A DNA stretch of 59,730 nucleotides from a virus: the IMG/VR virus record IMGVR_UViG_3300020395_000008, positions 1-59,730 of that record, one strand, 5' to 3'. The position numbers and the translations under genes were made by a program. The notes beneath the pieces were generated by a model. That model was not told the DNA's origin. It did no database searches and saw only the letters and a list, made by a program, of their open reading frames with translations. Shown here one piece after another: positions 29,150-48,323 of the stretch. Every line of letters begins with the position of its first letter. The stretch's first letter is position 1.

Positions 29150-30379
29150 ATGGCTATAACTGATAAAGAACAGGGAGTCTGGGATGTTGATCAGGTTTAT
29201 AATAAAATAAACCAAGGTGGCATCTGGAAATATAATGGTGCAGCAGGGGAACCTGGTGGTGTATGGCAGTGGTACTACGATAATTATGGAAGATTAGGAA
29301 TTAATGAGGAACCCACTACTCCGAATACTTATTATTCTTCTCCTGTTATGGCTAATGGAACATTTGATGATAGTTGGGGGCAGACTATTACTACGTTTGC
29401 AAGGGGAAATGATGGATCACTGTGGGCATGGGGATATAATGGTATGGGATTATTAGGACAAAATGATACTGCCAGTCGTTCTGTACCAGTTCAAATAGGA
29501 ACTGATACTGATTGGGCTAAGAATGGTAGTATTGGGAGGTGGGTCAAAACTAATGGAGCAATGTATGTTTGTGGCCCCAATAGTGATGGAGCACTTGGTC
29601 TTAATATGCATTATGGTTCTGGGGAGGTGACTTCAAGTACTGGAAAATCATCACCAGTTCAACTAGGAACTGAGACTACATGGGCCCAATCAGAATATTC
29701 CCATTCAAAGTTGTTTAGTCTTAAAACTGATGGAACCGCATGGTATTGGGGAGGTTGGAGTTTTGGATGTGCAGGAAATGGAACAACATCTGGAACTCGT
29801 TCATCACCAACTCAACTTGCTGGATATACTTTTGCCAGTATGGGAAATTGTGGTGCTCCTACTACTCATCATTATGGGGGAGTTACTCCAACTGGATCTT
29901 TGTATATGTGGGGAGCAAATGCTTCTGGACAATTAGGACTTAATGAAGGCCCTTATAGAGCTCCTTGGCAACCTAACTGGGGTAGAACTAACAGAGATAA
30001 ATCTACTCCTAATAGTGTGCCTGGTACTACATGGAAATACATGCAGAACGGTCTAAGCACTACTCTTGCAAGTAAAACTGATGGTACATTATGGGCATGG
30101 GGATATGGTGCTCCTGGAGGATTGGGACTTAATAGCACAGGACAATATTCATCACCCACCCAAATCGGAACTGACACTACATGGACAGGAAAGATATTCC
30201 AATCTGGTTATAGGTCTGCTGCTGTCAAGACTGATGGATCAATATGGGTATGGGGAGCTAATAGTTATGGTGGTTTAGGGGTTAATGATAATACAAGTTA
30301 TTCATCACCTATTCAATTACCTGGATCGTGGACAGATATGGGAGATGGTTACTATATGAACCTCATCAAAGCTGGATAA
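29150..30379 (+). CDS. RCC1-type beta-propeller protein (adhesin candidate) 2
   Basis: This 409-aa protein has an N-terminal tag EQGVWDVDQVYNKINQGGIW, like that of the 27145 protein, followed by about seven RCC1 repeats. Clear copies are GSLWAWGYNGMGLLGQND, GTAWYWGGWSFGCAGNG, GSLYMWGANASGQLGLN, GTLWAWGYGAPGGLGLN and GSIWVWGANSYGGLGVND, each followed by a S-S-P-x-Q strand. The blades are nearly identical in the sequence that forms the core and vary in the loops. It starts three bases after the 28439 gene and probably shares its late transcript. Receptor binding is inferred from virion context and the propeller fold. Confidence 0.75.
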   Translation: MAITDKEQGVWDVDQVYNKINQGGIWKYNGAAGEPGGVWQWYYDNYGRLGINEEPTTPNTYYSSPVMANGTFDDSWGQTITTFARGNDGSLWAWGYNGMGLLGQNDTASRSVPVQIGTDTDWAKNGSIGRWVKTNGAMYVCGPNSDGALGLNMHYGSGEVTSSTGKSSPVQLGTETTWAQSEYSHSKLFSLKTDGTAWYWGGWSFGCAGNGTTSGTRSSPTQLAGYTFASMGNCGAPTTHHYGGVTPTGSLYMWGANASGQLGLNEGPYRAPWQPNWGRTNRDKSTPNSVPGTTWKYMQNGLSTTLASKTDGTLWAWGYGAPGGLGLNSTGQYSSPTQIGTDTTWTGKIFQSGYRSAAVKTDGSIWVWGANSYGGLGVNDNTSYSSPIQLPGSWTDMGDGYYMNLIKAG

Positions 30380-30382
30380 ATA
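30375..30382 (+). promoter_or_regulatory. Near-consensus late promoter at the start of the modification island
   Basis: GATAAATA (one mismatch to TATAAATA) overlaps the stop codon of the second RCC1 gene and precedes the first oxygenase gene by 21 bases. It implies that the following enzyme genes are expressed late, with the virion proteins. Confidence 0.55.
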
Positions 30383-30403
30383 AGTAAAAATTGCTTTTTT
30401 ATT

Positions 30404-31039
30404 ATGCAAAATCTATATGACTTGATTATAATTAGAGAAAATGTGGTTCCTCAAGAACATATAGAGGAATTGATGTTTTTGACTAATAGTGAGGATACAT
30501 CCCAAGCAACGGTTTTTAAGGAAGAAACTGAAGGAAAAAGCATAGATAGAAAAGAAGATAAAGGAAGGGAAGATTTAAAAATTAGAAATACTTTATGGTA
30601 TCCCATACCTGATGAACAGTGTGCTAAATTGGAAGGAGGTATTTCTCAAGCTTATTTTAATCATGTTCAACCAAAGTATAATTGTGAGTTTAAGAATTAT
30701 GAACCAGCACAATTTCTTGGTTATCCAGTAGGAGGACATTATCTGCAGCATATTGATGGAGAACAAATAAATCGTCAAACTGGAGAATGGGAACCAGCTT
30801 TAGATAGAGATGTTTCCTTTTTATTTTATTTGAACAATGAGTATGGAGGAGGAGAAATTGAGTTTCCTACTTTAGGGTTGACTATTAAACCCAAAAAAGG
30901 TATGATGATAGCATTCCCTTCTTATAAGGAATTTCCTCATAAGGTACATCCTGTTACATGGGGACATAGATACACATTGGTTAGTTGGATATCAACAAAA
31001 GAAAAACTTTATGACACCATTCCAAAAACAGGGGTTTGA
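30404..31039 (+). CDS. 2-oxoglutarate/Fe(II) oxygenase, prolyl 4-hydroxylase type
   Basis: This 211-aa protein has the double-stranded beta-helix of the prolyl 4-hydroxylase family. The iron site is H116-x-D118 (HYLQHIDGE) with the distal H179, and R189 in HKVHPVTWGHRYTLVSW binds 2-oxoglutarate. The strand pair SFLFYLNNEYGGGEIEFPTL is typical. Such enzymes hydroxylate proline or other residues of proteins, using O2 and 2-oxoglutarate. The gene opens the modification island directly after an RCC1 gene and overlaps the next oxygenase gene by 29 bases. The substrate is unknown; a virion protein or a nucleotide sugar or glycan are all possible. Confidence 0.85.
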   Translation: MQNLYDLIIIRENVVPQEHIEELMFLTNSEDTSQATVFKEETEGKSIDRKEDKGREDLKIRNTLWYPIPDEQCAKLEGGISQAYFNHVQPKYNCEFKNYEPAQFLGYPVGGHYLQHIDGEQINRQTGEWEPALDRDVSFLFYLNNEYGGGEIEFPTLGLTIKPKKGMMIAFPSYKEFPHKVHPVTWGHRYTLVSWISTKEKLYDTIPKTGV

Positions 31040-31571
31040 GGTAGTAAAGGGGTATATTCCTCCTTTTTTTTCCACTTACCTTAGAAATTATTTTACTCTT
31101 AGAGCACAAATTGATCCTACTTTAACGGGTGATCCTCAAGCTCCTAACTCTCATTGTGTTTATGGAGATCCTGCATTTGAAATGGTAATGGCTATGTCAA
31201 CCATTGATATACAAAATATAGTAGGTAAGAATCTTATACCACAATATACCTATGCAAGAATCTATAAGAATGGTTCTGTCCTTAAAAGGCATAGTGATAG
31301 ACCTGAGTGTCAATACTCCATCACTCTATGCTTAGGTGGAGAGTATGATAAGCACTGGCCTATATGGATAAATGATTATTCTGGTAAAAGTCATGAGGTT
31401 CCACTTGACGAGGGAGACATGGTGGTCTATCATGGGACAGCGTTAGAACATTGGAGAGATAAATTTGAAGGTACTACACAGTATCAACTCTTTATGCATT
31501 ATGTGGATGCACAGGGTGAATTTAAGGATAGAGTATTTGATGGTAGACCTAATCTTGGAATGGAAAAATGA
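31011..31571 (+). CDS. 2-oxoglutarate/Fe(II) oxygenase 2
   Basis: This 186-aa protein shows a second oxygenase fold with metal residues H94-x-D96 (LKRHSDRPECQYSITLCL) and distal H147 (ALEHWRDKF), followed by a closing strand YQLFMHYVD. The usual arginine of the 2-oxoglutarate site is not obvious, so the cosubstrate contact may differ. It resembles small oxygenases common in marine T4-like phages. The start overlaps the upstream gene by 29 bases and has no clear ribosome binding site, so it may depend on coupled translation. It overlaps the downstream TPR-glycosyltransferase gene by four bases. The substrate is unknown. Confidence 0.75.
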   Translation: MTPFQKQGFEVVKGYIPPFFSTYLRNYFTLRAQIDPTLTGDPQAPNSHCVYGDPAFEMVMAMSTIDIQNIVGKNLIPQYTYARIYKNGSVLKRHSDRPECQYSITLCLGGEYDKHWPIWINDYSGKSHEVPLDEGDMVVYHGTALEHWRDKFEGTTQYQLFMHYVDAQGEFKDRVFDGRPNLGMEK

Positions 31572-32878
31572 ACATGATACCTCAGTTAATTGGAGAACTT
31601 TTTCAGGGAAGGGAATATCCTGCTGCACGAGAACTTGCTATTGCATATTTGAGGCAAAAGGAAGATGATGATATAAGATTTATGCTTGCAGGAATTTACC
31701 ATGAGGAAAAGAAATATGAAGAAGCATTAAAATGTATAGAGAAAGTTCCTCTCAGTGAGATGGTTATTGTTCATAAAGCAAAAATTCTTTATTATCTAGA
31801 AAGAGCACCAGAAGCAGAAGCACTTCTTCGATCTCTTCCTAAAAAATGGAAAAAGGATGAATCATATATGATAGATCTTGGATTGTATATGACAGCTCAA
31901 GGTAAATTAAATCAGACTAGAAAATTAATAGGTCCGATTGCTGATACAAATGTACGTGCTTCATTTAATTATGGTTGGCATTTATTAGCAGAGGACAAAT
32001 TTCAGGAAGGTTATAGGTATATTCGTGCAGGTGCTATAGATGAATTAAGAGTATGGGGACATGAGTGGATATTAAGAAAGGACTATAATATAGGTGAACA
32101 ATATCGGTGGAAACTTGGGGAGGAAGTAGATACGATTGCTTTTTACCTTGAAGGTGGTATGGGTGATGGAATGATATTTGTTCGTTATGTAGAACATCTT
32201 AAAAAGTATTGTAAGACAGTAAAAATATTCTCTCCAAAACAATTGATACCTTTATTAGGGGCATGTGGGTTTCAGAATTTGTATGAACCAAAACAGATAG
32301 TAAAGACTAAGTGGGATAAGTATGTACCTGCTATGTCAGCTCCTTACTTCTTAGGACTCAATGATCCTATGGAAGGTGTGACTTTTCCATATTTTAAAAA
32401 GAAAGCAAATCCTGTTCCAGAAATGAATCGGATTGCAAATGGTAAAAAGAAAATTTGTATTCGTTGGAAAGGAAGTGCTCAGTTTGAACATGAGCAGTTT
32501 AGAAGTATTCCTATAGAAAAGATGTTGGGACTTGAAAAGTTTGGACAGTTATTTTCTATTCAACTTGAAGATAGTGATTTACCTAAGAATGCAAATGTAT
32601 GGGATCTTGCTCCTAGTATTAAAACATGGAATGATACCTATGATATCTTTGCAGAATCTGATTTGGTGATTACTTCTTGTACTTCTGTTGCTCATTTAGC
32701 TGGTGCAATGGGAGTACGGGTGATAGTATTACCTCCTTTAAATTCATATATTACATGGAATACAAAAGAGATGAGATGGTATCCTGATAACGTTGTGGTA
32801 TTGCAGCAAATGGAGTATAATAGTTGGGATAAGACCATAGATAAACTATACGAAATGATGGAGAACTGGGAATGGTAG
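31568..32878 (+). CDS. TPR-repeat protein with GT9 (heptosyltransferase-like) domain
   Basis: This 436-aa protein has TPR-like helical repeats over about 1-175 (YPAARELAIAYLRQKEDDD, KKYEEALKCIEKVPLSEM, PEAEALLRSLPKKW). A Rossmann-type glycosyltransferase region follows: FYLEGGMGDGMIFVRYVEHL, KICIRWKGSAQFEHEQFRS, and near the end DLVITSCTSVAHLAGAMGVR. That last stretch is the acceptor/donor pattern of GT9 ADP-heptose transferases. TPR domains fused to glycosyltransferases usually grip protein substrates, as in O-GlcNAc transferase. The ADP-heptose genes 11 kb downstream make a heptosyl donor a reasonable guess. It is coupled to both neighbours by short overlaps. Confidence 0.75.
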   Translation: MNMIPQLIGELFQGREYPAARELAIAYLRQKEDDDIRFMLAGIYHEEKKYEEALKCIEKVPLSEMVIVHKAKILYYLERAPEAEALLRSLPKKWKKDESYMIDLGLYMTAQGKLNQTRKLIGPIADTNVRASFNYGWHLLAEDKFQEGYRYIRAGAIDELRVWGHEWILRKDYNIGEQYRWKLGEEVDTIAFYLEGGMGDGMIFVRYVEHLKKYCKTVKIFSPKQLIPLLGACGFQNLYEPKQIVKTKWDKYVPAMSAPYFLGLNDPMEGVTFPYFKKKANPVPEMNRIANGKKKICIRWKGSAQFEHEQFRSIPIEKMLGLEKFGQLFSIQLEDSDLPKNANVWDLAPSIKTWNDTYDIFAESDLVITSCTSVAHLAGAMGVRVIVLPPLNSYITWNTKEMRWYPDNVVVLQQMEYNSWDKTIDKLYEMMENWEW

Positions 32879-33495
32879 AACAAATAGAAACTATGAAATA
32901 TGACTTATTCCCTACTCATATAGTAAGGAGTAAGTGTCCATCCATCACACCAGAGGATAAGCAAGAGATGATGGCTTGCACTGACTGGATGATAGAGCAG
33001 AAGATGTATACTGAGAGTGAATTAGTACCTAAGTATCAAACTCATGTAATGTTATTCAGAGATGATGCACCACCTATCTGGAAGAAGTTGAGAGAAGAAT
33101 TTTATAATGCATGTAGGAATTATCTGCAGAATGTAGATAGTTTTTGTAGTAATCAGGATGCATTGGACTTTACTGGTTCAGGTGCATGGGTATATAAAGG
33201 ATGGAAGTCTATAGATCAGCAAGAAACTAATCCTTGGCATGATCATAACCCTTCATTCTTATCTGGTGTATATTATCTACATGATCCTGGTGATGGAACC
33301 ACTGGAGGCACTGAGTTTCATGATCCAAGAAAGGCAGAAGCACAGGGAACCAGAATGCAAGAGATCTTACCAATAGAGAATACATGGATTATATTTCCTG
33401 GTTGGTTGGCTCATCGGAGTAGACAGTTACCATTAGAAGCACCAAGATATGTGGTTTCGGGTAATTTGTATGTGAAAGTAAGGGATGGATTATGA
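32872..33495 (+). CDS. 2-oxoglutarate/Fe(II) oxygenase 3
   Basis: This 207-aa protein has the pattern of the phage-type oxygenases that carry H-x-H instead of H-x-D: NPWHDHNPSFLSGVYYLHD (H123, H125), GGTEFHDPR, then IIFPGWLAHRSRQ (H181) and PRYVVSGNLYVKV with R192 for 2-oxoglutarate. The first start codon overlaps the upstream gene by seven bases; a second ATG seven codons in is possible. The enzyme would hydroxylate an unknown target. Its neighbours, a GT9-like transferase upstream and a GT-A transferase downstream, suggest that hydroxylation and glycosylation act on the same product. Confidence 0.8.
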   Translation: MVEQIETMKYDLFPTHIVRSKCPSITPEDKQEMMACTDWMIEQKMYTESELVPKYQTHVMLFRDDAPPIWKKLREEFYNACRNYLQNVDSFCSNQDALDFTGSGAWVYKGWKSIDQQETNPWHDHNPSFLSGVYYLHDPGDGTTGGTEFHDPRKAEAQGTRMQEILPIENTWIIFPGWLAHRSRQLPLEAPRYVVSGNLYVKVRDGL

Positions 33496-34190
33496 AAAGA
33501 GCCATATTTACATTTTATAATCTTTCTCTTGATATTGATATCGTAAGACTTCAGGCAGAGGTAGTTAATAAACTTAATACAACAGCAGACTTTCTTCCGT
33601 TATGTTCTCAGACACATGGAGAGGAAGTTATTCATCCTGATGCGGTTGATTATGGATTTACTCAATTGTTTGTAGAGAAGAAGTATGATACTGTTCTTTT
33701 ATTAGATGTGGATTGTATTCCTTTAAATGCTTATGCACTTGAATATACTTTTGAGCAAGCAGAGAAAGGTAAGTTGATTGGTAATGTACAGAGAGGAATG
33801 CATTTAGACAATGATGAGCATAATTATGTTGCACCATCAGCATTTTGTTTGACACGTCAGATGTATGAAGACTTTGGAAGAATGACAGTGAAACCTGATC
33901 ATAGGAAGGCTGATACTTGTGGATATTATACTTATAGAGCACAGGAAAATGGAATAGATGTTGAGATGTACCAACCCACTCACTTTCAACGTAGACCTAA
34001 AGAGGGTGTATGGGATCTTGGGAAAGGTCGTGGAGAATGGGGTATAGGTACTACATATTCAAATCATCTAGGAGTAGAAATGTTCTATCATTTATTTTCT
34101 GCTCGTGAAAAAATATATAATGTTTACTTCTATGATAAATGTGAGAAGATTGTAGGAATAAATAGGTTGAAAGGATCCTCTCAGGTATAA
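33492..34190 (+). CDS. GT-A-fold glycosyltransferase-like protein
   Basis: This 232-aa protein begins with a strand-helix (KRAIFTFYNLSLDIDIVRLQ). It carries a metal/nucleotide-binding D-x-D at 72-74 in the stretch YDTVLLLDVDCIPLNAYALE, as in GT-A enzymes that use nucleotide sugars. Later elements are APSAFCLTRQMYEDFG and a C-terminal part with GRGEWGIGTTYSNHLGVEM. The family could not be fixed. It is coupled to the oxygenase upstream by ATGA and to the RCC1 propeller gene downstream by TAATG. A propeller adhesin is therefore translated from the same message as these enzymes. Confidence 0.65.
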   Translation: MKRAIFTFYNLSLDIDIVRLQAEVVNKLNTTADFLPLCSQTHGEEVIHPDAVDYGFTQLFVEKKYDTVLLLDVDCIPLNAYALEYTFEQAEKGKLIGNVQRGMHLDNDEHNYVAPSAFCLTRQMYEDFGRMTVKPDHRKADTCGYYTYRAQENGIDVEMYQPTHFQRRPKEGVWDLGKGRGEWGIGTTYSNHLGVEMFYHLFSAREKIYNVYFYDKCEKIVGINRLKGSSQV

Positions 34191-35419
34191 TGGCAGAACT
34201 TAGACAAAATACTTGGACATTAAATCAATGGTATGATCAGGATGTGGCAGGAGATGCGAAGTATGCGGCCGCAGGTAAATTATGGGCATGGGGATATAAT
34301 TTATATGGACAATTAGGACAGAATCAAAGTGGACCTACAGCAAGTTATTCATCACCAATTCAAATAGGAACTGATACTAATTGGAGTAAGGTAGCGAATA
34401 ATGGTTACAACAATATGTTTGGCATGAAACAGGATGGAAGTTTATGGGCATGGGGAAGGAACTCAACTTACATAGGAGGTGGATCTTTAGGACTTAATGA
34501 TGCTATAGATCGTTCATCACCAACTCAATTACCTGGTACAGGGTGGCAGATGACTCGTGATACTTTTAATTCGGGTTATGGGGCTACAAGTGCCATAAAA
34601 GAAAATGGATCATTATGGATATGGGGATCTAATCAAGAGGCACAATTAGGTCTTCCAAGAGTTGCACCTTATTGGTATTATCTATTAGAGTATTCATCAC
34701 CTGTTCAACTTCCTGGAAATTATTCCAAAACGAGATATGGGAGTAGACTGAGTACTGGTGGAGCATTGTCGATGTGGGGTGCTAATCAATTTGGTGAATG
34801 TGGGCAAAACACTGGTCCTACAACACCAATGGGTGCTTATTCATCACCTGTTCAAATACCAGGTACTTGGTCTGATTTTATGAGAACTAATAATGCACCC
34901 TATCAATCTTGTAGTGGAATTAAAAGTGATGGAACCTTATGGGCATGGGGATATGGTGGTGAGGGAGCATTGGGACTAAATGATAGATCATATCGTTCAT
35001 CACCAACTCAAGTACCAGGTACGTGGTTAAGATGTGCTAGTGGAAATCAAGGCGTTTATCAAGCATGGCAAAAACCTGATGGATCTATATGGTTTGCAGG
35101 AGGTTCTACATCCCCCTACATTAACTTTGGATATCCTGGTAAGAGATCCTCACCCACACAAGTTCCTGGTACAATGATACCATCAATAAGTCATTTTGTT
35201 ATTGGTGGTCAAGGACTCTTTTTAGATGTACCTAATAGTAAAAATTATGTTACTGGTCCTAATGGTCAAGGTAAACAGGGAAATAATACTACCCCTGGTG
35301 GATATGCAGATGTAACTTATGTTCCTTCGGTATGGGATAAGTTTAAAGATAGTGGGATGGGTATAGATCAGATAGGAAATGCAAATTCTGACTCAAACTT
35401 TGCCATTGAACAACAATAA
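34190..35419 (+). CDS. RCC1-type beta-propeller protein (adhesin candidate) 3
   Basis: This 409-aa protein has a short N-terminal segment RQNTWTLNQWYDQDVAGDAK and then about seven RCC1 repeats. Examples are GKLWAWGYNLYGQLGQN, GSLWAWGRNSTYIGGGSLGL, GSLWIWGSNQEAQLGLP, GALSMWGANQFGECGQN and GTLWAWGYGGEGALGLND, with the linking strands YSSPIQIGTDTNW and RSSPTQLPGTGW. The last blades are more diverged (TGPNGQGKQGNNTTPGGYAD). It begins inside the stop codon of the glycosyltransferase gene, which is unusual for a virion protein and ties it to the modification enzymes. Confidence 0.75.
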   Translation: MAELRQNTWTLNQWYDQDVAGDAKYAAAGKLWAWGYNLYGQLGQNQSGPTASYSSPIQIGTDTNWSKVANNGYNNMFGMKQDGSLWAWGRNSTYIGGGSLGLNDAIDRSSPTQLPGTGWQMTRDTFNSGYGATSAIKENGSLWIWGSNQEAQLGLPRVAPYWYYLLEYSSPVQLPGNYSKTRYGSRLSTGGALSMWGANQFGECGQNTGPTTPMGAYSSPVQIPGTWSDFMRTNNAPYQSCSGIKSDGTLWAWGYGGEGALGLNDRSYRSSPTQVPGTWLRCASGNQGVYQAWQKPDGSIWFAGGSTSPYINFGYPGKRSSPTQVPGTMIPSISHFVIGGQGLFLDVPNSKNYVTGPNGQGKQGNNTTPGGYADVTYVPSVWDKFKDSGMGIDQIGNANSDSNFAIEQQ

Positions 35420-35422
35420 ATA
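35415..35422 (+). promoter_or_regulatory. Near-consensus late promoter before the sulfotransferase gene
   Basis: AATAAATA (one mismatch to TATAAATA) overlaps the stop codon of the third RCC1 gene and lies 17 bases before the next ATG. Confidence 0.45.
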
Positions 35423-35439
35423 ATCAAAATCACTTTATT

Positions 35440-36273
35440 ATGCAACAACTTCATTATTGTCTAGGTCTTCCTAGAACTTGCTCATCAGTCATTATGAACA
35501 TACTGAATGAGAATCCAAGAATATTTACAACAGGCACATGCTGTACGCCTTATCTGGTAGATGCATGTCAGAAAAGATCAGGAGAAGTATCTGAATTTTT
35601 AGCATTAGATAAAGAGGTATTAAAGAAGTCATATATTAACTTCCTACGTCAGGGAATGAAGGGATGGTTTGAGGCGATGACTGATAAACCTATTGTCTTT
35701 TCCAAGTCAAGGGTATGGTCAGAGTGGCTTCCTCATACTTTTGCAATAGATCCTAACTCTAAGTATCTGGTGATACTGAGAGATCTAAGAGATATTATTT
35801 GTTCTTTTGATTCTCTTCTATGGAAGTTTCCTCAAGTCACTTATGGTGATAGAGAGAAACAATTCTATCAAGAATCATTTGAGCATAGAATGGAGATGTA
35901 TTGTCGGGATATAACATCTCTTTTAGGTCGGCCATTAAAAGTGCTTCCACATGTATTAGAAGTAGCACAGAAGAATCCAGGTAGTTTTTTCATATGTAAA
36001 CATGAGCATTTCAATGAGAATCCAAGAGAAACATTGAGAATGATATATGAATGGATAGGAGAACCAAACTTTGAACATGATTTTGATAATATTCCAGAAC
36101 CAGATTATAAGGAGAATGATTCAGTTTACAGATCTTTAGTGTATCATAAGACAGGAACTAAATTAAAGAAGTTAGAACCAAGATGGCCAAAGATTATGAC
36201 AGAAGAGCAATCTAAGGCAGTCATTACAAACAATCTATCTTACTATCAAACATTTTATCCTGAAGTATTATGA
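35440..36273 (+). CDS. Sulfotransferase-like protein
   Basis: This 277-aa protein matches the PAPS-dependent sulfotransferase fold. The N-terminal strand-loop LHYCLGLPRTCSSVIMNIL (P11-R12) corresponds to the 5'-phosphosulfate loop, although the usual Gly/Thr-rich part is replaced by C-S-S. The strand YLVILRDLRDIICSFDSLL gives R114 and S122 for the 3'-phosphate site. The helix NPRETLRMIYEWIGEPNFEH is typical near the C-terminus. The enzyme would transfer sulfate to a hydroxyl of a sugar or of tyrosine. In this island, sulfation of a glycan made by the adjacent transferases is the natural inference. It is coupled by ATGA to the GT25-like gene that follows. Confidence 0.8.
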   Translation: MQQLHYCLGLPRTCSSVIMNILNENPRIFTTGTCCTPYLVDACQKRSGEVSEFLALDKEVLKKSYINFLRQGMKGWFEAMTDKPIVFSKSRVWSEWLPHTFAIDPNSKYLVILRDLRDIICSFDSLLWKFPQVTYGDREKQFYQESFEHRMEMYCRDITSLLGRPLKVLPHVLEVAQKNPGSFFICKHEHFNENPRETLRMIYEWIGEPNFEHDFDNIPEPDYKENDSVYRSLVYHKTGTKLKKLEPRWPKIMTEEQSKAVITNNLSYYQTFYPEVL

Positions 36274-40679: not shown

Positions 40680-41287
40680 TACGTAGAAATTTAATTGTTG
40701 TTGATGATTTTTTACAGAACCCTGATGCTGTAAGAGAGTATGCTCTAGAGCAACAGTTTGAATTTTTTGGAGGAAAGAATTGGCCTGGTAGAGATAGTGC
40801 TGAGTGTCATGGTGAGGAGGAGATGACTGAAGCATGTTCTCAGGTAGTAGGGGAGAAACTTACTATCAAACCAGAGAACAAGTGTTCTTACTTTAGATTA
40901 ACTAAAGAAGGACAGTATGGAAGACAGCATATTCACTTTGATCCCAATCCAGGATTGATATGGGCTGGTGTTCTTTATCTCACACCTACTATTCATCCTA
41001 CAGGAGGTACAAAGTTCTGGAAACATAAAGAAACAGGATGGGAGAGTTCTCCTACTACCCACGAGGGTGCAAAGTATGGTGTGCATTCTCACCAGGATAT
41101 GGTAAAATTTTTTGATATTGAAGGAAAGGATGAGTCCAAATGGATAGAACTAGATAATGTTGCTTTTAAATATAATCGTTTGGTTATGTTTAATCCTTCT
41201 CTTTGGCATTCAAATGGTGATTTGTTTGGAACTATGGAAGAAGATGCAAGACTAGTACAACTATTTTTCTTTCATGGAGCAGATTAG
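40676..41287 (+). CDS. 2-oxoglutarate/Fe(II) oxygenase-like protein 6 (DUF6445-like)
   Basis: This 203-aa protein has an N-terminal NLIVVDDFLQNPDAVREYAL and a metal motif QHIHFDPNPGLIWAGVLYL (H87-F-D89). GGTKFWKHKETGW follows, and the distal RLVMFNPSLWHSNGDLFG (H178) precedes EDARLVQLFFFHG with R192. That is the layout of DUF6445-type oxygenases found in phages and marine bacteria. It is coupled by ATGA to the GT9 gene upstream and overlaps the YkgJ-like gene by 14 bases. The substrate is unknown. Confidence 0.75.
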   Translation: MIRRNLIVVDDFLQNPDAVREYALEQQFEFFGGKNWPGRDSAECHGEEEMTEACSQVVGEKLTIKPENKCSYFRLTKEGQYGRQHIHFDPNPGLIWAGVLYLTPTIHPTGGTKFWKHKETGWESSPTTHEGAKYGVHSHQDMVKFFDIEGKDESKWIELDNVAFKYNRLVMFNPSLWHSNGDLFGTMEEDARLVQLFFFHGAD

Positions 41288-41711
41288 AGAGTGTGGTGAG
41301 TGCGACCTATGTTGTAATTGGTTGTCTCATAATGTCTATGGGCAACAGATAACCTTAGACAGTCCATGTAGGTTTTTAAATAATGGATGTTCTATTCATC
41401 CTAATAGACCTGCTCAATGCAAGAGATACTTCTGTATGTGGGCTCAAGGAGTTCTACCTGAGTGGATGTTTCCTAAAGATATAGGTATTATAGTGAGTGT
41501 CAAGAATTGGCCATATGGTCAATGGTTAGAGGTAATTGAGGCAGGAAAGCCAATAACAGATGAAATATTGGCAGAGTTAGGTAAGTTTAATGTGCCTGTT
41601 AAATATACGAGGGAGGGAAAAGAATATATACTCGGAGGATCTGAATTTGAAGAGTTCTACCAAGATTATGTCACAAAAAATCGCCATCTTTTATCACCTG
41701 TATCAGACTGA
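41274..41711 (+). CDS. YkgJ-type cysteine cluster protein
   Basis: This 145-aa protein has the cysteine pattern of the YkgJ family of zinc/iron-chelating proteins: C-x2-C-x2-CC at the start (RECGECDLCCNW), then PCRFLNNGCSIHPNRPAQC and CKRYFCMW. Members of this family are often encoded near enzymes that modify proteins or glycans and may deliver metal. In this window it sits among Fe(II) oxygenases, so a metal-supply role would be logical. That is an inference from the neighbourhood. It overlaps the previous gene by 14 bases and the next by 44. Confidence 0.8.
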   Translation: MEQIRECGECDLCCNWLSHNVYGQQITLDSPCRFLNNGCSIHPNRPAQCKRYFCMWAQGVLPEWMFPKDIGIIVSVKNWPYGQWLEVIEAGKPITDEILAELGKFNVPVKYTREGKEYILGGSEFEEFYQDYVTKNRHLLSPVSD

Positions 41712-42300
41712 ACTATCTGGTCTAATATATCAACAACAGATGCATAGATTACGCACATCTGGATTGATGGATGCATGTGAGTTTATTCATATTGGAACCG
41801 TGGGTGAGAATGAACTTTTTTCATTACCTAAGAAAGCAAAGGTTCATAAGAATGAAAGACTGACTAAGGATGAGGGTGAGACAGTAGAGTCAATGTATAA
41901 ATTCTCTAAGGAGAATCCAGACTATAAAGTATTATTCTTTCATGCAAAAGGAGCAAGCAGACAATTTGTTCCTCAACTTCATGCATGGAGATTATTCTTA
42001 GAGTATTATGTAATTGATAAATGGAAAGAATGTATTAGTTATCTGGATGAATATAATGTAGTGGGAGCCAAGTTAAGAATGAAACCTTACCCACATTTTA
42101 GTGGTAATTTTTGGTGGGGAAATTCGGATTATCTTGCTACATTAGATGAGAACTTTTTGTATACTCAAGGAGAACATGGTAAAATTGATAGGGAGTTGAT
42201 GATTGGAACTGGACCTAAGTTTGACCCTTATAATATTCATCATGTTCACATAGACACCAACATGTATGATACAATATTTACAGAAGACAATTATATATGA
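41668..42300 (+). CDS. Glycosyltransferase-like protein
   Basis: I choose the ATG at 41668 (210 aa; MSQKIAIFYHLYQ), because an upstream in-frame ATG at 41590 would add 26 residues that only translate the preceding gene in another frame. Recognisable features are LMDACEFIHIGTVGENELF, YKVLFFHAKGASR, and NVVGAKLRMKPYPHFSGNFW followed by SDYLATLDENFL. This pattern, with H-A-K-G-A and S-G-N-F-W-W, recurs in glycosyltransferase-like proteins from surface-polysaccharide loci. No classical D-x-D is clear, so the call is weaker than for its neighbours. It is coupled by ATGA to the next oxygenase gene. Confidence 0.55.
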   Translation: MSQKIAIFYHLYQTELSGLIYQQQMHRLRTSGLMDACEFIHIGTVGENELFSLPKKAKVHKNERLTKDEGETVESMYKFSKENPDYKVLFFHAKGASRQFVPQLHAWRLFLEYYVIDKWKECISYLDEYNVVGAKLRMKPYPHFSGNFWWGNSDYLATLDENFLYTQGEHGKIDRELMIGTGPKFDPYNIHHVHIDTNMYDTIFTEDNYI

Positions 42301-43058
42301 TCAACAGACTTGAAGTTTCTAAATTAAAATCTGAGTTTATTAAGGGACAACCATTTCATCATGTAGTAATAGATAATTTTTTTGATGATGAAACTGCTAT
42401 GTCATTGAGTCGGGAGTTTCCTGATTATAATTCTGATGTGTGGTATGTATATAATAATCCCCTAGAGAATAAGAAGGCTTGTAATACATGGAACCTCTTT
42501 CCACGGAACTTATATTCTACATTTTGTTATTTGAATTCTCCTTCCTTTATCTCTAAACTGCAGAAGATTACTGGCATCAAGAAATTATATCCTGATGTAG
42601 GACTGCATGGAGGAGGGTTGCATATGCATGGTAAAGGTGGTAAACTGAACGTGCATTTAGATTATTCTATTCACCCTAAACTTAAACTTCAAAGGAAATT
42701 AAATCTCATTGTTTATCTTGCTGAGAACTGGAATCCTGAGTGGAAAGGCCAATTAGAGTTCTGGTCAGCAGATAGAAAACAATGCATAACTTCCACTGAT
42801 ACACTCTTTAATCGTGCAGTAATGTTCGATACTACCCAAAACTCATATCATGGACTTCCAACTCCTCTGGAGTGTCCTGAGGGTCGTTATAGAAAGAGTA
42901 TAGCAGTTTATTATCTTACTGATCCCGTAGAGAATTGTCCTGTTAATTCCAAGGCAATATACATACCAACTGAGGATCAGAAAGATGACCCTGAAGTGAA
43001 TAGAATCATCAGCAAGAGGGCAAGTATGGTAACTGTAGACGAGGTTTATCGTGTCTAA
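42297..43058 (+). CDS. 2-oxoglutarate/Fe(II) oxygenase 7 (prolyl hydroxylase type)
   Basis: This 253-aa protein has the opening FHHVVIDNFFDDETAMSLSR that is typical of prolyl-4-hydroxylase-like proteins. The metal site is KLNVHLDYSIHPKLKLQRK (H120-L-D122), followed by LNLIVYLAENWNPEWKGQLE. The distal part has NRAVMFDTTQNSYHGLPTP with H185 and RYRKSIAVYYLT with R199. In bacteria this type of oxygenase is often found beside glycosyltransferases. It overlaps the RfaE2-like gene by eight bases, linking oxygenases and the ADP-heptose genes on one transcript. Confidence 0.85.
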   Translation: MINRLEVSKLKSEFIKGQPFHHVVIDNFFDDETAMSLSREFPDYNSDVWYVYNNPLENKKACNTWNLFPRNLYSTFCYLNSPSFISKLQKITGIKKLYPDVGLHGGGLHMHGKGGKLNVHLDYSIHPKLKLQRKLNLIVYLAENWNPEWKGQLEFWSADRKQCITSTDTLFNRAVMFDTTQNSYHGLPTPLECPEGRYRKSIAVYYLTDPVENCPVNSKAIYIPTEDQKDDPEVNRIISKRASMVTVDEVYRV

Positions 43059-43452
43059 AATTGTATGGACTAATGGTACATTTGATATCCTGCACCCTGG
43101 CCATATACAACTCTTCAAAGTTGCAAGGTCATTGGGTGATAAGGTTATAGTTGCTACTGATACTGATGAAAAGATAAAGAAAGATAAAGGTGATCATAAA
43201 CCAGTGAATGATTTAAAGTATAGAGTTGCTATGCTTGAATCAATTAAATATATTGATGTAGTATTGACATTTGGTGACAGACCAGAACTTGAGGGGTTGA
43301 TACAATTATATAATCCTGATATACTATTACTTGGTGATGACTGGAGGTATGGGGATGTGGTAGGTAGAGAGTATGCTAAGGAAGTTAGATTCCTTCCAAG
43401 AGTGGGAGGTTATGCAAGCAGTAACACTATTAAAAGGATTCACAACCTATGA
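43051..43452 (+). CDS. rfaE2: RfaE2/HldE-type nucleotidyltransferase domain protein
   Basis: This 133-aa protein starts with GTG. It carries the nucleotidyltransferase motif TNGTFDILHPGHIQLF (HxGH at 15-18), VIVATDTDEKIKKDKGD, LLGDDWRYGDVVGREYA and the closing SNTIKRI. The combination fits the C-terminal domain of HldE (RfaE2), which turns heptose-1-phosphate and ATP into ADP-heptose. Glycerol-phosphate cytidylyltransferases share the first motif but not the P-D-x-L-x-x-G-D-D and S-x-T-I-x-x-I pattern to the same extent. The kinase half of HldE follows directly as a separate gene (ATGA overlap). Confidence 0.8.
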   Translation: MSKIVWTNGTFDILHPGHIQLFKVARSLGDKVIVATDTDEKIKKDKGDHKPVNDLKYRVAMLESIKYIDVVLTFGDRPELEGLIQLYNPDILLLGDDWRYGDVVGREYAKEVRFLPRVGGYASSNTIKRIHNL

Positions 43453-44228
43453 AGGTATTATTAATTGGTGATAGTTGTGAAGACAGGTATTTCTATGGAG
43501 ATGTTAAGAGACTGAATCCAGAGGCTCCTGTTCCTATCTTAGAGTATAAGAGAGGAGTAACTACTGAGGGGATGGCATGGAATGTTTATAATAATTTGAA
43601 AGTATTTGGTGTGGATGTTTATATGTTGACGAATGAGGAGAAAATTATTAAGACAAGATTTATAGATGAGAAGTCTAATCAACAAATCTTACGTTCAGAT
43701 GAAGAACCAGAGATTACTCCTTTACCTCACAAACAACCCTTTATTGATGATAGGTCTGCATATCACAAACTACATCATAAAGTTCCCCCTGAAGATTGGT
43801 ATGACATCATGGTCATATCTGATTATAATAAAGGTTATATAACACAGGAAAAGTTATTTGAGTTAGTTGATTGGTTTGAGGGTCCAGTGATTATCGATAG
43901 TAAGAAGACAAATTTACCTGATAAATGTTATATTAAAGTCAATGATCTTGAGTATGAAAAGTTAGAAACTAAAACTAATAATGTGATTATAACTAAGGGT
44001 GGTATAGGTGCAGAGTATCAAGGTAAATTATATCCAGCAGAGAAAGTAAACGTCTTTGATGTAGTGGGTGCAGGTGATACGTTCCTTGCTGCCCTTACCT
44101 ATGGATACTTAAAGTATGGTACAATAGAGGAAGCAATACCTCTTGCAAACAAGGCAGCAGCAATGGCTGTATCACATAGAGGAACTTATGTATTAACGGA
44201 GGAAGATGTCAAAAAGATACTGCATTGA
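43449..44228 (+). CDS. rfaE1: RfaE1/HldE-type sugar kinase (PfkB family)
   Basis: This 259-aa protein matches the kinase domain of HldE, which makes heptose-1,7-bisphosphate. Signatures are VLLIGDSCEDRYFYGDVKRL with NPEAPVPILEY, IMVISDYNKGYI, VIIDSKKTN, NVIITKGGIGAEY, and NVFDVVGAGDTFLAALTYGY with the catalytic D210 in G-A-G-D. It is shorter than the E. coli kinase domain (about 318 aa), and the part corresponding to the N-terminal substrate lid is trimmed. Splitting of HldE into two genes in reverse order is notable. It overlaps the HAD gene by 23 bases. Confidence 0.8.
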   Translation: MKVLLIGDSCEDRYFYGDVKRLNPEAPVPILEYKRGVTTEGMAWNVYNNLKVFGVDVYMLTNEEKIIKTRFIDEKSNQQILRSDEEPEITPLPHKQPFIDDRSAYHKLHHKVPPEDWYDIMVISDYNKGYITQEKLFELVDWFEGPVIIDSKKTNLPDKCYIKVNDLEYEKLETKTNNVIITKGGIGAEYQGKLYPAEKVNVFDVVGAGDTFLAALTYGYLKYGTIEEAIPLANKAAAMAVSHRGTYVLTEEDVKKILH

Positions 44229-44556
44229 TATTGATGGTACTATTTGTACTCCAACTGTGGGTAGAGATTACCATAAAGCAGAACCTTGGAAAGATAGAAT
44301 CAAGGTACTAAATAAACTCTATGATGAGGGTAATTATATTATCTACTTTACTGCACGAGCAATGGGTAGATTTTCTGATCAAACTCATTTTGATGCTGCA
44401 ACAAAAGCAAAAGAAGTCTTATTTGAACTTACTGAAAAACAATTGAATGATTGGGGTGTTAAGTACCATGAGTTGATCATGGGTAAACCACATGCTGATT
44501 ATTTCATAGATGATAAAGCATGGCCTGATAAAGTATTCTTTAATGATAAACGATGA
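44206..44556 (+). CDS. HAD-superfamily phosphatase-like protein
   Basis: This 116-aa protein has all HAD motifs in reduced space: CIDIDGTIC with D8 and D10, YFTARAMGR (T49), MGKPHADYF with K94, and FIDDKAWPD with D102-D103. There is no cap domain. It is preceded by GGAGG four bases before the ATG. In the ADP-heptose pathway a HAD phosphatase (GmhB, about 190 aa) removes the C7 phosphate of heptose-1,7-bisphosphate between the two HldE reactions. This small protein sits exactly between the kinase and the rest of the pathway, so it could fill that step. A generic sugar-phosphate or polysaccharide-locus HAD is the alternative. Confidence 0.7.
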   Translation: MSKRYCIDIDGTICTPTVGRDYHKAEPWKDRIKVLNKLYDEGNYIIYFTARAMGRFSDQTHFDAATKAKEVLFELTEKQLNDWGVKYHELIMGKPHADYFIDDKAWPDKVFFNDKR

Positions 44557-44915
44557 GAGAAACTAAACCAAAATTTGTACCTAAAGGATGGGGTTGGGAG
44601 AAGTGGATTGCCAACTCTTCTGAGTACTGTGGTAAGTTATTGTTTATCAAAAAGAATCATAGATGTTCATGGCACTATCATGTTTTAAAGGATGAGACTT
44701 TTTATTTACAGTCAGGAAAGATTCATTTGTTCTATGGTAAGACTGATTCTTTGGATGAAGCAGAAAGTATGATATTAGAACCTGGTGATAGTTTTCATTG
44801 CTGTAGGAAGACTAGACACCAGATGGTTGCAATAGAAGATGCAGAATTATTTGAGTTCTCTACTCAGCATTTTGATGAAGATTCTCATAGGGTGATAGCT
44901 GGAGATACTCTTTAA
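44553..44915 (+). CDS. Cupin-domain sugar isomerase-like protein
   Basis: This 120-aa single-domain cupin has motif 1 in SWHYHVLKDETFYLQSGK (H41, H43, E48, G55) and motif 2 ending in the second-half histidine H89 (KTRHQMVAIED). The start GWGWEKWIANSS and the motif spacing resemble the C-terminal cupin of mannose-6-phosphate isomerase/GDP-mannose pyrophosphorylase and other sugar-phosphate isomerase-like proteins. The gene is coupled to the HAD gene by ATGA. Its last 56 bases overlap the end of the convergent HldD gene, so both C-termini share DNA. Confidence 0.7.
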   Translation: MRETKPKFVPKGWGWEKWIANSSEYCGKLLFIKKNHRCSWHYHVLKDETFYLQSGKIHLFYGKTDSLDEAESMILEPGDSFHCCRKTRHQMVAIEDAELFEFSTQHFDEDSHRVIAGDTL

Positions 44916-45684
44916 CACTAATAAATTTATTATCCCATTCTTTCTTAGCACATGTGTAAGTTTGATACTTACCTTTTAAGTGTTCAGGGAATGGGATATA
45001 TTCTATTGTACCGTTATATTTTTCTGCTATTAGTTCTCCTACTGTCTGGAAACTAATAGGATTACTAGTTCCTAAATCATATATACCTGATGGTTTATCA
45101 TTGTTAAGAACAGTCTCTACTATATCTCCTACCCATACAAAATCTCTTAGAAACTTATCTGATCCTTTAAATAGTTTGAGTCTCCCTGTTTCTTGAATCT
45201 GTTTGGTGAACTTATGCACAGGACTAGCTTGATCACCTTTATGATCTTCACCATCTCCATATACATTAAAGTATCTGAAACTTTGGATAGATGAGAACTC
45301 TTCTATGTGATCTTGAATATAATAATCCATCTGCAACTTAGTAATTGCATAATAGTTGAGTGGATTGATTATACCTTGTTGATTACCATAAACAGATGCA
45401 GAGGATGCAAATTTAACATCTATTTCATGCTCTATTGCCTTCTCAAACAACTCTATGGTGAACCAAACATTAGTTCCATGAAGTTTATCTATGTCTGTTT
45501 CTGTTGTATCTGAAATTGCTCCTTGATGTAGTATAAGAGATACTTCATCCCACTCCTCAAAGAATGTTATCCAATCCCAACAATCCTTTTCATCTACTGT
45601 AATTATTTTTTCATCCGAATGTTCTATGAGATATTTTAGGAAATTTTGACCTATGAAACCCTTTGAACCCGTAATTATTATCAT
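44860..45684 (-). CDS. hldD: ADP-glyceromanno-heptose 6-epimerase (HldD-like)
   Basis: This 274-aa short-chain epimerase matches HldD (about 310 aa). It has GxxGxxG in IIITGSKGFIGQNFL, SLILHQGAISDTTETD, KFASSASVYGNQQGI with S94/S95, and the catalytic Y112-x3-K116 (NYYAITK). Then come FRYFNVYGDGEDHKGDQAS, KGSDKFLRDFVWVGDIVE, GIYDLGTSNPISFQTVGEL and EYIPFPEHLKGKYQTYT. These stretches are nearly diagnostic for HldD. The enzyme converts ADP-D-glycero- to ADP-L-glycero-manno-heptose, the donor used by GT9 heptosyltransferases. It is the only minus-strand gene of the island, has its own sigma-70-like promoter (45699-45727), and ends inside the cupin gene. Confidence 0.9.
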   Translation of the reverse strand: MIIITGSKGFIGQNFLKYLIEHSDEKIITVDEKDCWDWITFFEEWDEVSLILHQGAISDTTETDIDKLHGTNVWFTIELFEKAIEHEIDVKFASSASVYGNQQGIINPLNYYAITKLQMDYYIQDHIEEFSSIQSFRYFNVYGDGEDHKGDQASPVHKFTKQIQETGRLKLFKGSDKFLRDFVWVGDIVETVLNNDKPSGIYDLGTSNPISFQTVGELIAEKYNGTIEYIPFPEHLKGKYQTYTCAKKEWDNKFISVKEYLQLSPYENLHQNAE

Positions 45685-45698: not shown

Positions 45699-45727
45699 AT
45701 TATAACAGAGATAAATAAGAAAAGCAA
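45699..45727 (-). promoter_or_regulatory. Sigma-70-like promoter for hldD
   Basis: On the minus strand TATAAT lies at 45704-45699, preceded by the extended -10 TG dinucleotide. Seventeen bases further upstream is TTGCTT (45727-45722), a weak -35 match (TTG only). It points to the hldD start at 45684. On the plus strand the same region contains the late promoter GATAAATA for the next adhesin. Confidence 0.55.
45710..45717 (+). promoter_or_regulatory. Near-consensus late promoter before adhesin 4
   Basis: GATAAATA lies 33 bases before the ATG at 45750, inside the 65-base divergent gap with hldD. It falls within the spacer of the opposing sigma-70-like promoter. Confidence 0.55.
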
Positions 45728-45749
45728 GTAGTATTATCGTTGTCGTAAT

Positions 45750-48323
45750 ATGCCATCACGAAAGGCCCAATTAGTTTCACCTTTATCGGGAGATTATATT
45801 CCTATAGCAGGACTGAGTGTGACAGGAGTTATCACTGCTATAGGTGGAATATCTGGACCAGTAACAGGAGCTGCACAATCAATTACTGATGGTGCTAATT
45901 TAGATTTGGGAACCGTTACAGCAACTACTTTTGTTGGAGATTCTATTGGTACATATAGAGCAGCAGGATTAACTAATACAGGTGCAGGTACATCTAATTT
46001 AAATGTAGGAGTAGTTACTGCTACAAGTATTTCGGGAGTGGTTACAGGAAATATTACAGGTACAGCAAGTAGTATAATCAGTGGATCAGATTTAACAGTT
46101 GGTGTTGCTACTGCTGTAACATGGTTAGGTGATGGATCAGGAATTACAGGTGCTGGTTCAAGTGCATTTATAGGACAGTCTGTTAGTGCTGGAACAGGAA
46201 CTACTACAATTGATTTAAGTAGTGGTAATATAATTAATTTTACTCAAACAGTTAAAACCACTACTGTATCATTTGCAAATACTGGAACAGCGAATAGAGT
46301 TACTATTATTAGAAACCCTAATGCTGAAAATATAGACTGGAATATAAGTTACTCCACTGGTGGTGTAGAATTTGATGGTACTGATTATTTAAGTATTCCT
46401 GATGATAGTGATTTTACTTTTGGAACAGATGATTTTACTATTGAATTTTGGTATAAAACAAATAATATTTCTGGTCTAGCAAATGGTTATGACTACATTT
46501 TTTCTTCAGGATGGCCTGTTCAACTAGCACATCATGAGAGTGGTGGTAGTAAGATTGGTTTTTGGATGAGAGACAGTGCTACTGGTGATAGTGGTAGTTA
46601 TTTCATAAGTGATTTAAATACTGGTGGAGGTTCAATTGCTTCAACATCTGTTTGGTATCATATAGCAGTAACAAGAAGTGGTAGTACCTTTAGAATATTT
46701 TTAGATGGTGTATTAAAAAATACACAAACTTCTTCAAGTTCTGCTCCAGCACCTGGTGAAGCTGCACAAATAGGTCGATTCGCTGGTGGTATGGATAGTA
46801 TGTATGCGAATGGAACGCTATCTAACTTCAGGTATATAAAAGGAACTGCACTTTATACTCAAGATTTTGTACCCCCATCAGCAGCACTTACGAATGTAAC
46901 CAATACTAAACTTTTATGTTGTCAATCAGATAGTTCTACTACTACTGCTGCTGTTATTCCTACTGGATCTATAACAGCTGGTGGAGATCCAACCGCAGCT
47001 GCTGAAACTGTTGCTTCCTCTGGAACTACAGTAATACTTCCACAAAACATAGAATGGCCTAGTAGTATTAAATGGAATGATGACAGCACACCTACTTTAA
47101 TTTCTAACGTTAGAACTTCTGCATTCCAAGTTTTTAATTTAACTACTGCCGATGCGGGAGTAACTTGGTATGGATGGGAGAGTTTTGAGGATGATCCCCA
47201 AACATTTACTCTGTGGTCATGGGGATATAATTATAGGGGACAATTAGGACAAGATAATGTAACACCCCTTTCATCACCAAAACAAGTTCCTGGTACTACT
47301 TGGTTAATGACGAATAATGGATGTAGTTATGTAGCCAACAATGTATCTATAGCAACTAAAAGTGATGGAACTATATGGTCATGGGGATATGGTAGTCAAG
47401 GAATGTTAGGACTGAACCAGAGTACACCCTCTGCAAAAATCTCATCACCCACCCAAATCGGAAGTAATACTAATTGGGGAGTGGGAAGTTCGAGTAGATC
47501 AGTTCTATGGTCTAAAACTGATGGAACACTATGGGCATGGGGATATAATACTGGTGGACAATTAGGACTTAATGAATCAGGGCCTGGGACTCCTAAAAAA
47601 TCATCACCCACCCAAGTAGGAACTGATACTAATTGGTCAACTTCCCATTCTACGGGAGGAAAGTATGCATCGGATCAAAATTCACCATCTGGTCGCACAG
47701 GAGCAATTAAAACTGATGGATCGTTGTGGATGATGGGAAATGGAGACTTAGGACAAAATAATACGACAAGATATTCATCACCAGTTCAAATTCCTGGCAG
47801 TTGGAAATCAATTAGTCTGAGTGGAGGGGGTTCCATTGCTCTTAAAACTGATGGAACAGCATGGGCATGGGGAACTAATAGTAATGCAATGTTAGGACAA
47901 AATAATAGAACAACATATTCATCACCAATTCAAATACCTGGCAGTTGGGCATCAATTACTTCAGGAAGACAGAATTCTTCTGGAGTTAAAACTGATGGAA
48001 CACTGTGGTCATGGGGATATAATAATTATGGTCAATTAGGACTCGGTGATAAAACATCATATTCATCACCAGTTCAAGTAGGAGCCAACGACACATGGTC
48101 TACTAATGCTTTTGCTGCTGGTGCTATGGGATATTTGTATAATACTACATATCTTAAAACTAATGGAACATTATGGACATGGGGAAGGAATGATAAAGGA
48201 CAATTAGGTCAAAGTCTTCCAGTTAATTCTCATCGTTCATCACCAGTTCAAATTCCTGGTACTAATTGGGGAGGTGTCACAAAGAGTGGAGAGACAGTGG
48301 TAGCACACCAATTTACCGCATGA
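45750..48323 (+). CDS. RCC1 adhesin 4: shaft, LamG-like domain and beta-propeller
   Basis: This 857-aa protein has three parts. Residues 1-150 are a repetitive shaft (KAQLVSPLSGDYIPIAGLSV, DLGTVTATTFVGDSIGTY), also present in the genes at 48344 and 50515. About 205-400 is a laminin-G/concanavalin-like region (VEFDGTDYLSIPDDSDFTFG, FTIEFWYKTNNISGLANGYD, WYHIAVTRSGSTFRIFLDGV). About 487-857 is an RCC1 propeller (FTLWSWGYNYRGQLGQDN, GTLWAWGYNTGGQLGLNESG, GTLWSWGYNNYGQLGLGD). LamG folds often bind glycans, so the protein could contact a host polysaccharide. It is the only one of the seven RCC1 proteins with this insertion. Confidence 0.75.
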   Translation: MPSRKAQLVSPLSGDYIPIAGLSVTGVITAIGGISGPVTGAAQSITDGANLDLGTVTATTFVGDSIGTYRAAGLTNTGAGTSNLNVGVVTATSISGVVTGNITGTASSIISGSDLTVGVATAVTWLGDGSGITGAGSSAFIGQSVSAGTGTTTIDLSSGNIINFTQTVKTTTVSFANTGTANRVTIIRNPNAENIDWNISYSTGGVEFDGTDYLSIPDDSDFTFGTDDFTIEFWYKTNNISGLANGYDYIFSSGWPVQLAHHESGGSKIGFWMRDSATGDSGSYFISDLNTGGGSIASTSVWYHIAVTRSGSTFRIFLDGVLKNTQTSSSSAPAPGEAAQIGRFAGGMDSMYANGTLSNFRYIKGTALYTQDFVPPSAALTNVTNTKLLCCQSDSSTTTAAVIPTGSITAGGDPTAAAETVASSGTTVILPQNIEWPSSIKWNDDSTPTLISNVRTSAFQVFNLTTADAGVTWYGWESFEDDPQTFTLWSWGYNYRGQLGQDNVTPLSSPKQVPGTTWLMTNNGCSYVANNVSIATKSDGTIWSWGYGSQGMLGLNQSTPSAKISSPTQIGSNTNWGVGSSSRSVLWSKTDGTLWAWGYNTGGQLGLNESGPGTPKKSSPTQVGTDTNWSTSHSTGGKYASDQNSPSGRTGAIKTDGSLWMMGNGDLGQNNTTRYSSPVQIPGSWKSISLSGGGSIALKTDGTAWAWGTNSNAMLGQNNRTTYSSPIQIPGSWASITSGRQNSSGVKTDGTLWSWGYNNYGQLGLGDKTSYSSPVQVGANDTWSTNAFAAGAMGYLYNTTYLKTNGTLWTWGRNDKGQLGQSLPVNSHRSSPVQIPGTNWGGVTKSGETVVAHQFTA

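Follow-up and report, generated by a model that had tools for sequence, protein, structure and literature searches.

We analyzed IMG/VR virus record IMGVR_UViG_3300020395_000008 over its full 59,730 nt (hereafter the window, a 59.7-kb genome fragment), in which an island of glycosyltransferase, oxygenase, sulfotransferase and sugar-nucleotide genes lies among genes for RCC1-propeller proteins. The window opens with baseplate and tail genes, and its gp26 is 75–77% identical to that of P-TIM68, S-SM2 and others, so we assign it to a T4-like cyanomyovirus. Synteny with S-SM2 and P-TIM68 places a hypervariable fibre region downstream of the baseplate genes, as expected for a cyanomyovirus host-recognition cluster, and we take the enzyme/RCC1 region to be that cluster in this phage. 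It runs from a tail-fibre gene (17177) through fibres and RCC1 genes to the enzyme island (30404–45684) and on to further RCC1 fibres (45750–55717). At the equivalent position S-SM2 carries a 2-oxoglutarate (2OG) oxygenase, a “ferrochelatase” and two more 2OG oxygenases between fibre genes, with no RCC1 annotated there. Our best reading, which we consider probable, is that the island encodes a cassette for glycosylating and sulfating the RCC1/tail-fibre adhesins in the cytoplasm, forming a coupled adhesin/glycan-enzyme system.

An original prediction, made from the letters of the sequence, described modifying enzymes interleaved with RCC1 adhesins, and this mixture is real. Between 30.4 and 45.7 kb lie seven 2OG-type proteins, up to seven glycosyltransferases, a sulfotransferase, a YkgJ-like protein and heptose-type sugar-nucleotide genes (Table 1), with RCC1 genes before (27145, 29150), inside (34190) and after (45750, 48344, 50515, 54332) the set. 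The RCC1 proteins of the window score over the PF00415 cut-off, and the large ones bear tail-fibre N-termini by PHROG comparison. Assignments of individual enzymes fared unevenly. Five of the seven proposed 2OG oxygenases exceed Pfam cut-offs (30404, 32872, 36995, 37548, 42297), while 40676 matches weakly and 31011 has no Pfam match. Among the seven proposed glycosyltransferase-like proteins, five are supported (31568, 33492, 36270, 38177, 39789), 39133 displays only an invariant DxD, and 41665 lacks independent support, with no Pfam or NCBIfam match. A PDB sequence search returned nothing useful for 31011, 39133 or 41665. The sulfotransferase (35440) was confirmed over its Pfam cut-off, the YkgJ label of 41274 comes from its own CxxC-rich sequence and found no Pfam hit, and the proposed ADP-heptose enzymes are HldE1-, HldE2- and HldD-like by best match, all three below NCBIfam cut-offs. 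Homologues of 31011 carry two annotations, “ferrochelatase” and “2OG oxygenase”, and share an invariant HxD...H pattern; the ferrochelatase label of phrog_2954 in many cyanophages is probably wrong, as the family looks like a 2OG oxygenase. The PHROG name for 40676–41287 (1644, “minor coat protein”) also looks doubtful given its oxygenase neighbours. All genes of the island except that for the HldD-like epimerase are on the plus strand; the epimerase gene overlaps the end of the cupin gene by 56 nt.

Table 1 Features of the fibre region and enzyme island in the window.
Feature	Position	Strand	Basis
Tail-fibre protein (phrog_529), start of fibre region	17177–23059	+	PHROG E 2e-271, first 666 aa; ATAAATA 36 nt upstream
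Fibre/baseplate-wedge-initiator-like protein	24683–27130	+	phrog_8215
RCC1-propeller adhesin (putative)	27145–28404	+	RCC1 scan, repeats over PF00415 cut-off
RCC1-propeller adhesin (putative)	29150–30379	+	PF00415 E 2.7e-25
Late-promoter-like motif, 28 nt upstream of first enzyme gene	30375–30382	+	
2OG-Fe(II) oxygenase	30404–31039	+	PF13640 E 2.5e-16
2OG-like oxygenase, family often labelled ferrochelatase	31011–31571	+	phrog_2954 E 3.7e-46; invariant H94-x-D96, H147
TPR + GT-B (GT9-type) glycosyltransferase, proposed adhesin glycosyltransferase	31568–32878	+	AlphaFold2 model, structure comparison
2OG-Fe(II) oxygenase	32872–33495	+	PF13759
GT-A-fold glycosyltransferase	33492–34190	+	AlphaFold2 pLDDT 90.2; Foldseek CHSY3, Mimivirus R699, LH3/COLGALT1
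Late-promoter-like motif within 33492, 32 nt upstream of RCC1 gene 34190	34157–34164	+	
RCC1-propeller adhesin (putative), within island	34190–35419	+	PF00415 E 1.8e-22
Late-promoter-like motif, 24 nt upstream of sulfotransferase gene	35415–35422	+	
Sulfotransferase	35440–36273	+	PF13469 E 4.8e-10, over cut-off
GT25 glycosyltransferase	36270–36998	+	PF01755 E 2.6e-13
2OG-Fe(II) oxygenase	36995–37573	+	PF13759
2OG-Fe(II) oxygenase	37548–38177	+	PF13759
GT2-like glycosyltransferase	38177–39133	+	PF00535 E 2e-5, barely over cut-off
GT-A-like protein, putative	39133–39813	+	Invariant DxD (D70, D72)
Second GT9-type glycosyltransferase, no TPR	39789–40679	+	Relative in locus L015 matched by 31568 family profile
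DUF6445, possibly 2OG-like	40676–41287	+	PF20043 E 3e-17; weak phrog_81 2OG match
YkgJ-like CxxC-rich protein	41274–41711	+	Sequence; no Pfam hit
Seventh glycosyltransferase-like protein of the original prediction	41665–42300	+	No independent support
2OG-Fe(II) oxygenase	42297–43058	+	PF13640 E 5.6e-15
HldE2/RfaE-II-like nucleotidyltransferase	43051–43452	+	PF01467; best NCBIfam TIGR02199, below cut-off
HldE1/RfaE-I-like PfkB sugar kinase	43449–44228	+	PF00294; best NCBIfam TIGR02198, below cut-off
HAD-type (capsule-biosynthesis-like) phosphatase	44206–44556	+	TIGR01689 E 6e-8, below cut-off
Cupin, sugar-nucleotide module	44553–44915	+	PF07883
HldD-like NAD epimerase	44860–45684	-	Best NCBIfam TIGR02197 E 7.7e-63, 212 bits vs cut-off 274.6
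Tail fibre with laminin-G and RCC1 propeller	45750–48323	+	Pfam, PHROG
Tail fibre with cupredoxin-like and RCC1 domains	48344–50497	+	Pfam, PHROG
Tail fibre with RCC1 propeller	50515–52356	+	Pfam, PHROG
RCC1-propeller protein	54332–55717	+	Pfam

The glycosyltransferase encoded at 31568 is closely linked to RCC1 genes. Scanning IMG/VR with this TPR-GT9 family, without reference to RCC1, recovered 80 loci, or 42 once near-duplicates were removed; RCC1 was present in 75 of the 80 and 40 of the 42, and was the immediately preceding same-strand gene in 31 of the 42 (within-locus permutation mean 4.9, maximum 12). Control loci centred on gp26 contained no RCC1 (0/80), a result that is weak alone because these loci are distant from the fibre region, mostly on short records, and whole-record Pfam counts were therefore added. 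PF00415 exceeded its cut-off in 33/33 GT9-bearing records vs 1/41 baseplate-gene control records, a contrast somewhat inflated by the shorter control records. In the single positive control record, GT9 is again a neighbour of the RCC1 genes, and GT9 was absent from all seven RCC1-negative control records tested, out of 40. Among 50,697 phage records, RCC1 matched 10 and the window TPR-GT9 matched four, all of them within those 10. RCC1 scans used alignment queries, since a single-protein query returned one locus only; this reverse scan found a GT9-like gene in 51 of 79 loci, with many of the others being short or cut contigs.

Linkage of the other enzymes is graded. The sulfotransferase scan found RCC1 in 53/77 loci with a clear excess of adjacency (18/22, permutation mean 2.7), and the GT25 scan in 62/77 loci with a modest one (9/31, permutation mean 3.6, maximum 10). 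RCC1 occurred in only 15 of 79 HldE1 loci, in 74–77 of which HldE1, HldE2, HAD and cupin genes form one fixed module, and sugar-supply genes lie near GT9 in about one quarter of GT9 loci. The co-occurrence of RCC1 with the enzymes, a comparison set beforehand, thus holds for GT9, GT25 and the sulfotransferase, and this linkage is real; the heptose block and the 2OG cluster do not show it. Frequent occurrence of the enzymes in phages without RCC1, which the original prediction named as evidence against itself, was seen with the 2OG and heptose genes but not with GT9, GT25 or the sulfotransferase, so the enzyme set as a whole is not RCC1-specific.

Whole gene order is conserved between the window and its relatives, and the layout recurs in S-SRM01 (RCC1, TPR-GT9, 2OG ... 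RCC1, sulfotransferase); in BUCT-ZZ01 the TPR-GT9 gene directly follows RCC1. Relatives have collagen-like fibres and a Phage_tail_APC chaperone as neighbours, and in two loci (L050, L093) the upstream position is taken by other large repeat proteins. Across four close relatives that keep this gene order (L015, L012, L031, L027), RCC1 proteins are 37–59% identical and the enzymes mostly 62–98% identical. Fast divergence of RCC1 against steadier enzymes, judging from these comparisons, is what one would expect of adhesins that are pressed to diversify while their modifying machinery stays constant.

The predicted structure of the 31568 protein has the layout of TPR protein glycosyltransferases. 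Its AlphaFold2 model (pLDDT 94.9) comprises helices over residues 1–156, forming a TPR solenoid, followed by a GT-B domain, the layout of O-GlcNAc transferase (OGT) and FlmG. The GT-B domain is of GT9 type, with its closest structures being the GT9 protein 3tov (Z 16.1) and WaaF (1psw, Z 15.8) over 234–240 aligned residues, and it superposes on TibC with ADP-heptose (4rb4) with Z 15.4 and a root-mean-square deviation of 3.0 over 239 residues. For the whole protein, OGT and SPINDLY rank first in Foldseek, and WaaC/WaaF match only the GT-B part. PF01075, the GT9 family, gave no hit to 31568, and the relative in L037 reached E 0.025 with 14.4 bits vs a cut-off of 22; because the Pfam cut-off is not reached, we call the modelled enzyme GT9-like rather than a GT9 family member. 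In FlmG the TPR domain binds the protein acceptor, flagellin (PMC7591256).

Timing of expression is likely late. Eleven of 17 ATAAATA motifs sit 15–60 nt upstream of a same-strand start (circular shifts: mean 0.43, maximum 4 in 5000 trials), and the starts so preceded include 30404, 34190 and 35440 in the island as well as 45750 and 48344. The claim that late promoters precede the units thus finds strong enrichment behind it, and three island units are preceded by a late-type motif. Also as described originally, an RCC1 gene (34190) starts inside the stop codon of the preceding glycosyltransferase gene, sharing one base with it, an arrangement kept in the relative MH319737. This translational coupling was rejected as special evidence because overlaps of 1–29 nt are the rule throughout the island.

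Relatives outside phages, together with enzyme fusions, extend the pattern. We found 36 bacterial and archaeal contigs with the TPR-GT9 family, 13 of which have RCC1 directly adjacent (e.g., Bdellovibrionaceae, Methylococcales). By eye, the N-termini of two Bdellovibrionales RCC1 partners look Tat-like, as would suit a folded protein modified in the cytoplasm. Sulfotransferase-GT9 fusion proteins lie between RCC1 genes in two loci (L112, L114), and another locus (L414) has the two domains the other way round. A Patescibacteria metagenome-assembled genome encodes, directly behind an RCC1 gene, a 1349-aa protein (L416, 7296–11345, minus strand) that combines sulfotransferase, GT9-like, methyltransferase, TPR and GT41 domains, with GT41 being the O-GlcNAc transferase family. 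As read from their domains, these fusions argue for a single pathway acting on protein.

Linkage, fold and fusions together make adhesin glycosylation our best reading, and the coupled system proposed originally gains from the RCC1/TPR-GT9 linkage seen in diverse viruses and in some bacteria, from the TPR-type enzyme layout and from the enriched late motifs. That the adhesin is the acceptor is our inference, as are the sugar, the sequence of reactions and any part played by hydroxylation. The island would act as a late-expressed adhesin-decoration factory within the host-recognition cluster, with the RCC1-propeller proteins serving as tail-fibre adhesins. The TPR arm of 31568 would hold the adhesin while the first sugar is attached in the cytoplasm, before virion assembly; the GT25, GT2 and GT-A enzymes may then lengthen the glycan and the sulfotransferase cap it. 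The phage HldE/HldD-like module could provide an unusual donor, perhaps of heptose type. Heptose is plausible because this module is present and Synechococcus lipopolysaccharide (LPS) lacks heptose (PMC4515613), which would also make host LPS a poor acceptor for such a donor. The 2OG oxygenases may add hydroxyl groups to the fibres or to the glycan; acceptor sites might arise in this way, much as lysyl hydroxylase and GT25 work together on collagen.

Several observations weigh against this reading. 2OG clusters lie beside ordinary tail fibres in the RCC1-less cyanophages S-SM2 and S-SCSM1. The gene immediately before TPR-GT9 encodes a non-RCC1 fibre in cyanophage loci L258 and L260, and a helicase gene precedes GT9 in L289-type loci. 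The HldE1 scan met RCC1 in few loci, the HldE/HldD-like genes score under NCBIfam equivalog cut-offs, and GmhA was not recognised among the genes of the window, itself a genome fragment. Some of the bacterial contigs may be proviral or misbinned, and LPS synthesis is a typical role of the GT9, GT25 and GT2 families. Because of the RCC1-less 2OG clusters and the two non-RCC1 fibre loci, the putative substrate is better described as a tail-fibre adhesin, very often RCC1.

One alternative, which we consider unlikely though the best placed of those weighed, is that two things are superposed: a real RCC1-GT9-GT25-sulfotransferase cassette, and unrelated neighbours (the 2OG cluster and heptose block) acting on other fibres or small molecules. 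The graded linkage from GT9 down to HldE1 and the RCC1-less 2OG clusters of S-SM2 and S-SCSM1 would be expected if so; conservation of the complete order in the window and its relatives, and the sugar-supply genes near a quarter of GT9 loci, speak for a unit. This alternative is compatible with the core of our best reading, the only difference being the share of the island that is included, so confidences in the two overlap and do not sum to one.

Less probable still, the enzymes may remodel the LPS or surface glycans of the host, as in serotype conversion or superinfection exclusion, and lie near adhesins since both serve host recognition. GT25, GT2, GT9 and HldE/HldD-type genes belong to LPS-type families, the heptose block is common in RCC1-less cyanophages, and pelagimyophage clusters with glycosyltransferases and rfaE have been read this way in print (PMC7029224). 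However, the promoter motifs are late-type rather than early, the TPR arm matches OGT/SPINDLY with WaaC/WaaF covering the GT-B part only, RCC1 and GT9 are immediately adjacent in unrelated backgrounds, a GT9-sulfotransferase-GT41 fusion stands beside RCC1, and Synechococcus LPS has no heptose. Mere hitchhiking, in which a known hypervariable island (PMC7029224) gathers adhesins and glycan genes without functional meaning, is very improbable given adjacency far above within-locus permutation, the same gene pair in bacterial contigs and recurrent enzyme fusions.

Adhesin decoration may also be one case of something wider, which we put forward tentatively: a widespread, previously undescribed protein-glycosylation cassette of many phages and some bacteria, in which a dedicated TPR-GT9 O-glycosylates RCC1 adhesins and sometimes other large fibres. 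The sugar might be phage-made heptose, followed by extension, methylation and sulfation, with hydroxylation added in cyanophages, and the decorated propeller would be the receptor-binding surface. If so, receptor binding of many uncultured phages could not be read from adhesin sequence alone, as the surface would bear phage-made sugars and sulfate. Glycosyltransferase, sulfotransferase and oxygenase genes now taken as host-LPS or auxiliary metabolic genes would gain a function, and the TPR-glycosyltransferase/acceptor pair would be a compact system for protein-glycosylation studies. Phage RCC1 proteins would gain an attachment role; they have been proposed to condense DNA (phAPEC6, PMC7247149). 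A search mostly confined to freely accessible literature found no publication joining RCC1 with phage glycosyltransferases.

Other features of these proteins were observed along the way. Fibre 48344–50497 contains a plastocyanin/azurin-like domain (PF00127 E 0.0013, below cut-off; residues 169–243, YYYQCGNHAGM) between its fibre repeats and propeller, and IMG/VR records of L064, L077 and L085 contain RCC1-repeat open frames of ~4,200–5,000 aa. We weighed a Ser-Ser-Pro signature of the RCC1 repeats as the modification site but set it aside as not diagnostic, since bacterial RCC1 repeats have it too. Podovirus MW202512 (L444, 7422–8999) encodes a TPR-glycosyltransferase two genes after the major capsid gene and near an FkbM methyltransferase, a position that suggests capsid decoration.

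Known systems resemble parts of this arrangement. The cyano-/pelagimyophage host-recognition cluster (PMC7029224) has the same location, with fibre genes among glycosyltransferases and rfaE-type genes, but the words RCC1, oxygenase and sulfotransferase do not occur in that paper, and the enzymes are read as host O-chain modifiers. Virion glycosylation, of the capsid, has been reported for mycobacteriophages Che8 and Rita (Freeman et al. 2023, cited in PMC11256854); as far as that account goes, phage glycosyltransferases there decorate the phage’s own virion proteins, as proposed here, with capsid rather than an RCC1 adhesin as the target. Collagen hydroxylysine glycosylation (LH3 with the GT25 enzyme COLGALT1) shares the pairing of 2OG hydroxylation with GT25, and the GT-A model of 33492 matches LH3/COLGALT1; the likeness is one of analogy only. 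TibC-type adhesin heptosyltransferase genes sit beside an adhesin gene, a likeness to the window. They also share the GT9-like GT-B fold with 31568, but serve another adhesin class, and the TPR arm belongs to the window enzyme. FlmG and OGT/SPINDLY (PMC7591256; PDB 2jlb, 7y4i) combine an N-terminal TPR with a C-terminal GT-B domain and act on cytoplasmic proteins, a layout that the 31568 model likewise predicts; the window GT-B is closest to GT9, however, and its proposed partner is an RCC1/fibre adhesin rather than flagellin.

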